Origin: Chryseobacterium gleum | GTDB lineage: Bacteria > Bacteroidota > Bacteroidia > Flavobacteriales_D > Crocinitomicaceae | Assembly (NCBI GenBank): GCA_945888595.1 | Contig: CAMDAO010000004.1 | Coordinates: forward strand, 1-60,646 | Direction: 5' to 3' | DNA length: 60,646 bases | Shown: piece after piece, positions 6,195-41,175 of the stretch | Numbering within the stretch: the stretch's first letter is position 1 | Layout: the number at the start of each line of letters is the position of its first letter | Translations under genes and position numbers: made by a program | The notes under the pieces: generated by a model | What the model saw: the letters and a program-made list of their open reading frames with translations, nothing else | Databases searched by the model: none | What the model was told of the DNA's origin: nothing

Positions 6195-6530
6195 ATGAAA
6201 AATTTAATCATAGTGGCAACGATACTATTTTCATGTACTATTGCTAGTGCACAAAAAATATTCAGTGTCAACAGCCAATCATATGCGGATGTTAAAGTAT
6301 ATGTAGTTAGCAGTGAATCATATGCAGACTTATTAGTTTATAAAGTTAGTAGCGAATCGTATGCTGGAAAGAATGATGGAAAGTGGTATTTTGTTTCTAG
6401 TGCATCGTATGCAAAAAAGAAAATTTATTTTGTTTCTAGCGAATCCTATGCGGATCTAAAAATTTATTTCGTTAATAGTGAGTCTTATGCTGGATGGAAA
6501 AATAGAAGTAAAATGCATCTTATGGAATGA
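6195..6530 (+). CDS. Secreted DUF6150 repeat protein
   Basis: A 111-residue exported protein. A signal peptide (MKNLIIVATILFSCTIASAQ, residues 1-20) is followed by six repeats spaced 13 to 16 residues apart, each built on (V)-S/N-S-x-S-Y-A-D/K/G with a short beta strand such as LKIYF between them. The third and sixth copies end with G and carry insertions (GKNDGKWY, GWKNRSKMHLM). The pattern predicts stacked short strands, perhaps a small solenoid. DUF6150 proteins of this length and architecture occur across Bacteroidota; their function is unknown. The gene is isolated and is followed by the convergent dusB. Confidence 0.82.
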   Translation: MKNLIIVATILFSCTIASAQKIFSVNSQSYADVKVYVVSSESYADLLVYKVSSESYAGKNDGKWYFVSSASYAKKKIYFVSSESYADLKIYFVNSESYAGWKNRSKMHLME

Positions 6531-37498: not shown

Positions 37499-38356
37499 TC
37501 ATTTTGCGATAGTAAAGTACACATTTTCAATAATTTCATCATTATTATATACGGTCAATTCGACGGTTGGTTCATTTTCGTCGGTAATTCCCACTTCAGA
37601 AAGTATTTGTTGTACATCAATATTTTTAAAATCTTGCAGCGCAAAGGTCTTTGAACTTTCTTTAAACCCAACAGCAGTAACATTGAATTTCACACTAAAA
37701 TTCGTTTTCATTTTTGCATTGTTTTTGAATTTAGGTGTGATAATAACTTGTGGAACCTGAGCAATTGTCAATTTTTTATTTTTAATTGATTCGCCATTTA
37801 ATAGAATATCGAACTTCCAAATTTCATTCTTCGTTAGCTCTGGTTCTTGCTTAATAAACTCACCATTTTTCCAAAATTCTGAATATAGGAATTCACCTTT
37901 ATTAGTATAATATATCCATTTCCCATCTGGCACACTGCAGAATCCTCTTGCTTGGATAGTTTTATAATTCCAATCTCCAGAATTATTTTCTTTGAATTTT
38001 CCACTTAATTTAACCTGACCATTTGCCCAAAATTCTTTGAAATCACCCACTCCACAATCTGTGCAAGATACTACTTCACGCAGGAGAATGTCATTTTTAT
38101 CATAATATTTTAGCAGACAAGGACAACAAGTTTCTACCGTTTTCCAATTAGGTTTGAATTTATCATAAGTAGATTTTGAAACCTTTTTTCCATCTAATCT
38201 ATATACTGCTTTTCCCTTAATTGTCCGAAATGAAGTTCCTACAGAATACATCTTCTTCGTCTCCAGTTTTTTATAAATAGTTGAAGAATCATTTTGCCCA
38301 AAAAGAGGAAAAATGGAAATGGTAAATAGTAACAGTGCTAATATGTCTTTTTTCAT
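37499..38356 (-). CDS. Secreted MORN-like repeat protein of unknown function
   Basis: A 285-residue exported protein with signal peptide MKKDILALLLFTISIFPLFG. The middle region (about 100-160) has toxin-antitoxin-type/MORN-like motifs: FKEFWANGQVKLSGKFKENNSGDW, PDGKWIYYTNKGEFLYSEFWKNGEF. Two cysteine pairs (CCPC near 77-80, CTDC near 96-99) precede them. The C-terminal 120 residues look like beta strands, with VELTVYNNDEIIENVYF at the end. Such proteins are widespread in Bacteroidota without a known role. It is transcribed toward the saccharopine-like gene and separated from nadD by a C-rich spacer. Confidence 0.7.
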   Translation of the reverse strand: MKKDILALLLFTISIFPLFGQNDSSTIYKKLETKKMYSVGTSFRTIKGKAVYRLDGKKVSKSTYDKFKPNWKTVETCCPCLLKYYDKNDILLREVVSCTDCGVGDFKEFWANGQVKLSGKFKENNSGDWNYKTIQARGFCSVPDGKWIYYTNKGEFLYSEFWKNGEFIKQEPELTKNEIWKFDILLNGESIKNKKLTIAQVPQVIITPKFKNNAKMKTNFSVKFNVTAVGFKESSKTFALQDFKNIDVQQILSEVGITDENEPTVELTVYNNDEIIENVYFTIAK

Positions 38357-38395
38357 CCGAAGCAGTATTTAATTTTGCTTTTCAAATTTTTAATG

Positions 38396-38498
38396 TTATT
38401 TCAAACACCTCATCTCTCAACCTAAAACTCATCCTAAATCTCAACCTAACCCCCCTCACCCCTTATAAAAATTCATCTCATCAATATACTTTCTCACA
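38396..38498. repeat. G-free (C-free on the nadD mRNA) low-complexity tract
   Basis: There is no G on the plus strand from 38396 to 38498. The tract covers the last codons of nadD and the spacer beyond it. It contains CTCAACCTAA twice and a C-rich end (CCCCCCTCACCCC). Confidence 0.6.
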
Positions 38499-39073
38499 GG
38501 TTCCGTTAATAAATATCGGACATCTTTTCCTGATTTAATTGCATTTCGAACAAAACTAGCAGAAACCTTCATCACTGGCGCTTCATTACAAATAGTGACA
38601 TTGGGTAAATCTCTGAATAAATTATCTGGAAGTGAGCCTATTTGATCTATTTCAATTTCCTCTTGTTCTGTCAGCACCCTTGGATACACATAGAAATCGT
38701 GGTTTTTTAAAATCACTTCATGGTTGAACCACTTGTGTAAAGTCCGTAAATTATCTTCCCCCATTATCAAGGAAAATTTATTGTCAGGATATTTTTCAGC
38801 TAAATATGTTAATGTGGTGGCAGTATAACTTGGTTTTGATAACTTGAATTCAATATCACTTGCTCTTAATTTTGGGTTATCATCAATTGCCGCCTTTACT
38901 ATCGCTAATCGATGAAAATCTGGTAACAAGGAAGATTTAACTTTTAGTGGATTTTGAGGAGAAACCACCAGCCATACCTGATCCAAGTCGGTAAAATCGG
39001 CCATATAATTTGCTATGACTAAATGCCCAACATGAATAGGATTAAATGTCCCGAAATATAAACCGATTTTCAT
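38456..39073 (-). CDS. nadD: Nicotinate-nucleotide adenylyltransferase
   Basis: An NAD biosynthesis enzyme of 205 residues that adenylates nicotinate mononucleotide. The nucleotidyltransferase motif GTFNPIHVGH is at residues 8-17, and the second conserved motif is SASFVRNAI (SxxxR type) near 170. IMGEDNLRTLHKW is the conserved middle segment. It overlaps gmk by four bases (ATGA), so translation is coupled. The last codons lie in a 103-base stretch with no G on the plus strand. Confidence 0.95.
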   Translation of the reverse strand: MKIGLYFGTFNPIHVGHLVIANYMADFTDLDQVWLVVSPQNPLKVKSSLLPDFHRLAIVKAAIDDNPKLRASDIEFKLSKPSYTATTLTYLAEKYPDNKFSLIMGEDNLRTLHKWFNHEVILKNHDFYVYPRVLTEQEEIEIDQIGSLPDNLFRDLPNVTICNEAPVMKVSASFVRNAIKSGKDVRYLLTEPVRKYIDEMNFYKG

Positions 39074-39651
39074 TCTTTGTTCAAAAATTCAGACACCATT
39101 TCTTTTGCCTTTTTACAAGCTTCGTCCAAGTTGTCGTTGATTAAAATAATATCAAATTCAGGCGCATAGGCAAACTCGGTATTTGCTTTTTTCATTCGCT
39201 GTTGAATTTTATCTTCTGTTTCTGTACTTCTATTTCTTAAACGTTTTTCTAATACTTCATAACTCGGGGGCTTTACAAATATGGATAATGCTTGTTCTCC
39301 AAAAATTCGCTTTAAGTTGAGCCCGCCAATAACATCTAGATCGAAAATAACACTTTTTCCGTTCGCCCAAATCCGTTCAATTTCCGACTTGAGTGTTCCA
39401 TAAAAATTATTTGTGTACACTTCTTCCCATTCAATGAAGGCTTCTTTATCAATTTGATCCTTAAATCCTTCCAATCCTAAGAAATAATAATCTTTGCCGT
39501 TTATTTCATTTTTTCTTGGCTCTCTGCTACAGGCAGAAACCGAAAATTCTAATCCCAAAGATTCTTTTAATAAATAATGTACAATCGTTGTTTTCCCCGC
39601 CCCGGAAGGAGCAGAAAAAATAATGCATTTACCTTTTTTACTATCTGACAT
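39070..39651 (-). CDS. gmk: Guanylate kinase
   Basis: A nucleotide kinase of 193 residues that converts GMP to GDP. The P-loop SAPSGAGKTT is at about 13-22. SACSREPRKNEINGKDYYFL is the GMP-binding region, FIEWEEVYTNNFYGT is conserved, and RLRNRSTETEDKIQQRM is the lid. It follows yicC in the same direction but is separated from it by a 474-base repeat region. It overlaps nadD at the 3' end. Confidence 0.96.
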   Translation of the reverse strand: MSDSKKGKCIIFSAPSGAGKTTIVHYLLKESLGLEFSVSACSREPRKNEINGKDYYFLGLEGFKDQIDKEAFIEWEEVYTNNFYGTLKSEIERIWANGKSVIFDLDVIGGLNLKRIFGEQALSIFVKPPSYEVLEKRLRNRSTETEDKIQQRMKKANTEFAYAPEFDIILINDNLDEACKKAKEMVSEFLNKE

Positions 39652-39692
39652 ATTAATGCTTTAAAATTAATATCTAAACTAAATCCCTTTTA

Positions 39693-40128
39693 AACCATAT
39701 AAGGAATATAAGGTCATATAAGAGCTGAGCAAACCTACACTACACTAAAACCCCCAATACCTAACACCAAATCCCTAAGCCCTAATTAAACACAGCCCAT
39801 AAAGACCCAATCCCTAGTCCCTTCTTTAACCATATAAGGAATATAAGGACATATAAGAGATGAGCAAACCTACACTACACTAAAACCCCAAATACCTTAC
39901 ACCAAATACCTATGCCCTAATTAAACACAGCTCATAAAGACCAAATCCCTAGTACCTTCTTTAACCATATAAGGAATATAAGGTCATATAAGAGATGAGC
40001 AAACCTAATTAAACACAGCCCATAAAGCCCAAATCCCTATACCCTAACTAAACACAGCTCATAAAGACCCAATCCCTATGCCCTAATTAAACAAAGCTCA
40101 TAAAGACCAAATCCCTAGTCCCTAATTA
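39693..40128. repeat. Nested tandem repeat array (135-bp and 39-bp periods)
   Basis: Two full 135-bp units (39693-39827 and 39828-39962, about ten mismatches by eye) begin AACCATATAAGGAATATAAG. A third unit starts at 39963 but lacks 47 bases between two CCTA sites. It continues as 39-bp units at 40004, 40043 and 40082 (each CCTAA[T/C]TAAAC...) plus a partial one at 40121. This 39-bp segment also occurs once in each 135-bp unit (39781 in the first). The plus strand is G-poor. The last partial copy includes the yicC stop codon (40126-40128). Confidence 0.92.
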
Positions 40129-40992
40129 AAGAGTATTCAATATTTGTTCTTTTATTTTTTCTAAGTTGTCTTTCATATCAACCACTAATTTTTGCATTTC
40201 TGCATGATTACTTTTACTTCCTAATGTATTAATTTCTCTTCCAATTTCTTGAGATATAAAGCCCAATTTTCTTCCTCCAGAAGGTAAAACCATTGTTTCT
40301 AAAAAATAGTCTAAGTGATTCATTAAGCGCATCTTTTCTTCAGAAACGTCTAATTTTTCAATATAAAAAATCATTTCTTGTTCGAAGCGATTATCATCAT
40401 ACGATTTGGTTTCTAAATCATCCAAACTTTTGCGCATGCGCTCACGAATAGTGTCGATTCGCTCATTTTCATATTTTGGAACTTCTAGTAATAAACGTCT
40501 AATGTCTTCAATTCGATCCGTAAATTCATTTTCAAGCGCAATGCCTTCTTGCCTTCTAAACACATTAATATCTTCTGCAGCAACTTTTACAAGATTAAGC
40601 AACCACTCCTTTTCCTCCTCTAAAAGTTCTTCTTTTTCATTAATATATATATCGGGCATTCTCAAAATAAGCGACAAATAGTCTTCTGACTTTTCTCCGA
40701 TTGCCTCATTAATTTGTTTTAAATCTTTATAATATGCAACCGCTAAATCTTGATTAACGGTGTAGTTTTTTGCAGAACCTGTACCATCAATATTAATATT
40801 TACGTCCACTTTTCCTCTGTCTAAAGATTCGCCAATTAAACTTCGGATACTTCCTTCCAATTCTTTATAAATCGGCGCATAGCGAACATTTAAATCCAAT
40901 GATTTACTATTAAGAGATCTAATTTCTACTGAAATTCTTTTGTCAAGATAGGAAGCCGTGGCTTTACCATATCCAGTCATTGATTTTAACAT
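40126..40992 (-). CDS. YicC/YloC family endoribonuclease-like protein
   Basis: A 288-residue protein with the N-terminal YicC domain (MLKSMTGYGKATASY, EIRSLNSKSLDLNVR) and the C-terminal DUF1732 domain (DRGKVDVNINIDG, EMIFYIEKLDVSEEKMRLMNHLDYFLE, GRKLGFISQEIGREINTLGSKSNHAEMQ). E. coli YicC has been reported as an endoribonuclease acting on a small RNA; the role in Bacteroidota is unproven. The usual order yicC-gmk-nadD is kept here, but a tandem repeat array begins at its stop codon. Confidence 0.93.
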   Translation of the reverse strand: MLKSMTGYGKATASYLDKRISVEIRSLNSKSLDLNVRYAPIYKELEGSIRSLIGESLDRGKVDVNINIDGTGSAKNYTVNQDLAVAYYKDLKQINEAIGEKSEDYLSLILRMPDIYINEKEELLEEEKEWLLNLVKVAAEDINVFRRQEGIALENEFTDRIEDIRRLLLEVPKYENERIDTIRERMRKSLDDLETKSYDDNRFEQEMIFYIEKLDVSEEKMRLMNHLDYFLETMVLPSGGRKLGFISQEIGREINTLGSKSNHAEMQKLVVDMKDNLEKIKEQILNTL

Positions 40993-41175
40993 GAGTTATT
41001 TTTTTTATAAAAGTAGTAAAAAAGACTGAAAACTTCATTCCCTTTTAAGTTGCTAGCGCGCAGAATCAAGAATCTTCCGCTTTCATTCAGATTAAAAAGT
41101 GAATTGAACAATAGCTCCATTGAGAATCAGCAGGTCTTGCATAACGGATGAATCTATTTTCAAACTTTATACTGC

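Follow-up and report, generated by a model that had tools for sequence, protein, structure and literature searches.

The closest described counterpart of the repeat array that separates yicC from gmk in this genome is the STAR repeat of Staphylococcus, which is built on a GC-rich 14-mer, T(G/A/T)TGTTG(G/T)GGCCC(C/A) (PMC3532100). As in STAR, a short core is found in direct repeats at intergenic loci, the recurring spacers are specific to each locus, the loci expand and contract, and both function and spreading mechanism are unexplained (PMC3532100). The core of the present array, however, is AT-rich with three internal words, belongs to another phylum, where it is found in several classes, and frequently forms facing inverted pairs. 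On reading the array we found no GGCCC-type core and nothing that fits the 14-bp STAR consensus; the core is ACCATATAAGGAATATAAGGNCATATAAG. The array has direct core repeats in an intergenic position, spacers particular to the locus, and expansion and contraction, and so behaves like a STAR locus, but it is not one because the sequences are unrelated.

Other described repeats resemble the array in part. REP/BIME sequences with RAYT are also short, dispersed and intergenic and often occur as inverted pairs or clusters (PMC2817692), but the core lacks the GT(A/G)G head, is AT-rich where they are GC-rich, and is not itself palindromic. A RAYT/REP origin was ruled out, as none of the 29 Y1/RAYT transposase loci (PF01797) in 14 genomes carries the core. 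The comparison with MITEs rests on a Draconibacterium metagenome-assembled genome (MAG), in which the core lies inside elements with apparent long terminal inverted repeats, and on a sequence, GTCTCAAAAGGA, that is common to several core-bearing spacers of the present genome. Unlike a MITE insertion, the array has no clean empty site among relatives, whose yicC-gmk spacers are fluid, so that a target-site duplication is not identifiable, and no terminal inverted repeats flank it within 38350-41100. VNTRs or minisatellites share with it the differences in unit number and order at orthologous loci, seen here between species with one genome per species, but the unit of this array includes a dispersed core that also occurs at unrelated loci. 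The segments between cores are themselves repeated, in contrast to the unique spacers between identical repeats of a CRISPR array, and a structured RNA or riboswitch finds no counterpart in the array, which has no Rfam match and no folding beyond its composition.

The array belongs to a dispersed repeat family, of which it is a locally expanded member that varies in copy number between sister species. We consider it likely that the family is intergenic and STAR-like and that at this locus it has grown in tandem between yicC and gmk, with any effect on gmk being incidental. The prevalence of the core in an evenly drawn sample of the phylum (given below) is patchy for such a family and counts against this explanation, and a binding protein could account equally well for the conserved word sequence in several classes.

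The window, the whole stretch of 60,646 nucleotides that was analysed, carries yicC (40126..40992), gmk, encoding guanylate kinase (39070..39651, with the P-loop motif SAPSGAGK), and nadD (38456..39073) as open reading frames on the minus strand, the names being taken from sequence and operon order. yicC was present in 29 of the 30 genomes searched. The 474-bp spacer between yicC and gmk (39652..40125, minus strand), delimited from the open reading frames and by spacer comparison, is filled by the array, which consists of 3 units of 135, 135, and 88 bp with one core each, followed by 39-bp periods up to the yicC stop codon. Tandem Repeats Finder reported a period of 135 over 39684-40078 (3.0 copies, 88% matches, score 597) and a period of 39 over 40004-40130 (3.3 copies, 88% matches, score 198). 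In the register alignment, unit 1 (39685..39819, plus strand) comprises a core and a C-rich tail, and unit 2 (39820..39954, plus strand) is 91% identical to it, in agreement with the first-pass annotation, which had described two near-identical 135-bp units and a shorter third. Unit 3 (39955..40042, plus strand) is a short form of 88 bp whose junction is shared with a sister species (genome G003); relative to unit 2 it lacks precisely the 47 nt that lie between two CCTA ends.

The first-pass annotation had also called the 39-bp periods that follow (40004..40130, plus strand) exact, which is true of the period, seen in register at 40025 and 40064, but not of the copies, which match at 84-87% over 67 nt. 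The final partial 39-mer, CCCTAATTAAA at 40120-40130, does span the yicC stop codon (TTA at 40126-40128), as proposed. Also as proposed, the plus strand of the array is G-poor, with a GC skew of -0.38 to -0.58, and since yicC, gmk, and nadD all lie on the minus strand the sense RNA of the spacer is G-rich and C-poor. A second 39-bp tandem repeat lies at 6387-6503 in the same window (three copies, 76% matches); its period is a multiple of three, and it may thus encode a 13-residue protein repeat. A G-rich word patch similar to the DNA of the array also ends the spacer after nadD (38356..38455, minus strand), where the nadD stop codon is met by GGTTAGGTTGAGATTTAGG on the sense strand. This patch reads GGGGGGTTAGGTTGAGATTTAGG on the sense strand, and like patches start from stop codons in the sister genome and in another genome of the genus, G001 (L310, L315, L333, L339). 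The spacer after nadD is also rearranged in the sister.

Each unit carries one ACCATATAAGGAATATAAGGNCATATAAG, usually preceded by TTTTTGA or TTTAA, and what remains of the unit is a C-rich, word-like tail. The core as a whole can be written AACCATATAAG-GA-ATATAAG-GNC-ATATAAG, that is, three ATATAAG words with starts 9 and 10 bp apart. A pattern search placed the three copies at 39694..39722 (ACCATATAAGGAATATAAGGTCATATAAG), 39829..39857 (ACCATATAAGGAATATAAGGACATATAAG), and 39964..39992 (ACCATATAAGGAATATAAGGTCATATAAG again), all on the plus strand. The exact two-word core pattern matches these three array cores and nothing else in the window; with up to 3 mismatches the core pattern has 6 matches there against 1.09 expected, well beyond chance. 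Among the 123 core copies listed, 72 are followed within 120 nt by an inverted partner that faces them (CTTATATGGT, with no more than 1 mismatch), which suggests that the core is part of a hairpin element, and 14 have a back-to-back inverted partner upstream. The full element is thus often a hairpin elsewhere, whereas the array, and the window with it, holds cores as direct repeats only.

The suggestion of a dispersed, genome-wide family with the array as one of its copies was borne out: the core recurs elsewhere between genes in this genome, across the genus, and across Bacteroidota. Within the genome, where counts rest on similarity and pattern searches together with an 816-kb sample, the whole array used as a query matches itself alone, and the core as a query gives 29 matches at E<=10, the best 13 of them at E<=1.5e-4. 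The three-word core at no more than 2 mismatches occurs 12 times, on contigs C1, C4, C7, C15, C43, C83, and C140. Core copies in the 816-kb sample are intergenic except for two that overlap predicted open reading frames, one at the start of a frame and one within a frame of 88 codons. Further tandem arrays of the core are found on C1 (L236:17859-18210), with six copies 61-70 bp apart between two plus-strand genes, on C7, with two copies 133 bp apart, and on C15, with two copies 116 bp apart; as each of these differs in period, the core is common to the loci and the period is specific to each. One spacer on C7 (L252:2044-2209), which has the strongest strand skew of the sample, consists almost purely of GGTTGAGG-type repeats when read in the sense direction. 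The sequence GTCTCAAAAGGA, which belongs to a GAGGCTGTCTCAAAAG-like end, is common to the spacers at L252:672, L246:5695, L268:10149, L271:6936, and L272:6630; most of the spacers with this sequence also hold remnants of the core, and they may represent a MITE family that carries it.

When about 85,000 species were scanned with the core pattern, at least 117 stretches matched, and the matches listed are all from Bacteroidota, after correction of two titled Kuenenia, and fall in the classes Bacteroidia, Flavobacteriia, Saprospiria, Cytophagia, Sphingobacteriia, and Chitinophagia. Assembly CALPRR02 (L067/L130), titled Candidatus Kuenenia stuttgartiensis, is apparently a mislabelled MAG, as it holds the same contig as genome G008 of the window's genus (L033). 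An even sample of the phylum contained the core at up to 2 mismatches in 6 of 148 species, with none for a reversed control pattern, and the core is accordingly widespread yet patchy in Bacteroidota. Viral contigs gave no exact core match and plasmids gave no core match, by which a phage or plasmid origin was ruled out. The dispersed copies that enclose the core in the Draconibacterium MAG (DYQJ01; L063, L070, L096, L146, L163) have an extended conserved flank, GTGTAAATTTTTAAGTGATAA ... TTATCACTGGAAAAATTACA, resembling terminal inverted repeats. Exact-string and keyword searches of the literature found no paper on the core, on related words, or on the repeat.

The word itself may be less constant than its arrangement. 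In contigs chosen because they contain the ATATAAG core, so that the result is a lead and not a census, exact triples of 6-nt words spaced 8-11 bp apart were observed 169 times, mostly the core for which the contigs had been selected, against 2 in one shuffle. In 10 of the 30 triples listed, the first word directly follows RCC, as in GCCACATAGACACATAGACACATAG, ACCACAGATTACACAGATTCGCACAGAT, ACCACATAAGACACATAAGGACCACATAAG, and ACCACAAAGTTCACAAAGGATTCACAAAG. The words found in this frame are ATATAAG, ACATAG, ACATAAG, ACAGATT, ACAAAG, ACGAAA, and ATTAAG, and a CACAGAG version of the element was present in 4 of the 148 sampled species. We tentatively raise the possibility, which for now seems rather doubtful, of a wider class in which RCC is followed by three copies of a 6-8 nt word, spaced by roughly one turn of the helix and frequently paired with a facing inverted copy, with the word varying and the frame staying the same. 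If it exists, such a class would imply a common mechanism of propagation or recognition, and we found no description of one in the literature.

Within the genus, similarity searches detected the array or its core in all 11 remaining genomes (best E values between 3e-53 and 0.0015); for the other genera of the family, the best E value of 0.018 is at the level of noise. yicC and gmk are separated by 1-2 bp in five species of the genus, by 16 bp in genome G004, by 55 bp of low-complexity sequence in G007, by 75 bp in G001, where the spacer holds one G-rich module without a core, by 474 bp here, and by 582 bp in the sister, and the array does split a gene pair that is usually contiguous, as had been noted. 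The sister is close to the present genome at the DNA level, with 98.6% identity in yicC, 95.2% in gmk, and 96.3% in nadD. Its array contains the same modules in a different order, with six cores, 3 of three words and 3 of one word, and aligns to the present one with 86% identity over ungapped columns and an additional 148 gap columns. The array is carried by two independent assemblies and is hence not a chimera.

This comparison bears on two further claims of the first-pass annotation. Copy number does vary, as it had suggested, between the two species (3 cores in 474 bp here versus 6 cores in 582 bp in the sister). The 47-nt difference of unit 3 stands, but its interpretation as a loss is contradicted by the sister array, which contains the short junction, AGCAAACCTAATTAAACACAG, twice and lacks the long form; because the sister has only the short junction, the short form is probably older and the long form derived. 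Three further orthologous core loci differ between the two genomes. The array on C1 has six copies here and five in the sister; the locus on C83 has one full core and one degenerate core here versus several in the sister, whose contigs break within the repeat; and the locus on C6 has no core here and one in the sister.

A role for the array in controlling gmk, and with it nadD, is not supported, and nothing that we found shows gene control; the proposal of a gmk-nadD regulator met with no fold beyond that of shuffled sequences, no Rfam match, and, as the sole promoter-like motif of each unit, one that carries G where the consensus excludes it. The motif in question is TAnnTTTGC, which in the direction of gmk resembles the Bacteroidota -7 element TANNTTTG. 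The units carry it as TAGGTTTG or TAGTTTTG, and the copy beside core 1, TAGGTTTGC, lies at 39729..39737 on the minus strand, with others at 39864-39872 and 39999-40007, although a promoter role for it is doubtful (PMC6847099). If the array were a multi-copy promoter, gmk-nadD would be transcribed independently of yicC at a strength set by the number of units. The motif is present on the sense strand in 3 units here and in 6 in the sister and absent from the antisense strand, counts that none of 500 shuffles reach, and TAnnTTTG occurs 2.3 times per kb upstream of genes in this genome versus 0.7 in coding sequence. The -7 element of F. johnsoniae, however, has been refined to TAHHTTTG, whose two middle positions practically never hold G (PMC6847099); the array motifs have GG or GT there. 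It is TAHHTTTG that is enriched upstream of genes (2.33 versus 0.53 per kb), and TAGGTTTG stands upstream of genes only 5 times in the sample. The copies in the array are moreover not independent, because the units share ancestry, and the motif is absent beside the cores at the other loci inspected. The -7 promoter, promising initially, was weakened by the refined consensus and the genome counts (PMC6847099). A regulatory role is possible because all units of the two arrays retain TAnnTTTGC, but we regard a promoter function as unlikely. Sigma-70-type promoters and intrinsic terminators were at the level of shuffled sequence, with none inside the spacer.

Two other functional readings fare no better. 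Lying within a codirectional run of genes, the array could act in the RNA between yicC and gmk as an attenuator, terminator, or stability element, and the inverted pairs that cores often form in other genomes could fold; the yicC-gmk array, however, has direct repeats only, its spacer folds no better than shuffles on either strand (sense z -0.21, antisense z -0.30) and contains no terminator-like site, and the C-poor sense RNA would be unlike a Rho loading site, all of which makes this reading most improbable. A related Rho-avoidance idea, that skewed spacers are always G-rich in sense, was dropped, because it held for all of the four most extreme codirectional spacers in a first sample but, over three species, for only 16 of the 27 codirectional spacers with strong skew. 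It is very unlikely that the core is the binding site of a Bacteroidota chromosomal protein, with its three words on one helix face and the arrays being selected clusters of sites. The 9- and 10-bp word spacing, the other words in the same frame, and the conservation of the core across six NCBI classes (among the matches listed) despite differing flanks would fit such a site. The patchiness in the sampled species and near-absence from other genera of the family argue against it, as does the fast turnover of core copy number and position.

We therefore return to the STAR-like repeat family as the preferred reading, for which a sequence of events can be outlined. The core, AACC and then ATATAAG three times at intervals of roughly one helical turn, is scattered over the genome and over Bacteroidota; in many copies it makes up half of a hairpin of two facing cores, which suggests that it may spread as a small, non-autonomous element that moves or is copied. 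At some loci the core and the DNA adjoining it would then have been tandemly duplicated through replication slippage or unequal recombination between short stretches of homology, and because the core would be copied with whatever adjoins it, each locus would come to have its own period and tail. In the common ancestor with the sister species, the 1-2 bp yicC-gmk junction was probably opened by G-rich spacer DNA of the word type, and the core-containing array would have formed afterward; the differences between the two arrays point to rearrangement since the species split. As the three genes lie in one codirectional run, gmk-nadD are probably read through from yicC across the 474-nt untranslated, C-poor spacer, and any effect of the array on gmk would be expected to be incidental.

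The analysis provides a defined and searchable core for a dispersed repeat of Bacteroidota, of which we found no prior description in the literature searched, and in the sister pair its arrays are seen to grow and rearrange between two housekeeping genes that are read in the same direction. Two questions thereby become testable: what agent spreads the core, and what becomes of an operon when untranslated repeat DNA expands within it.
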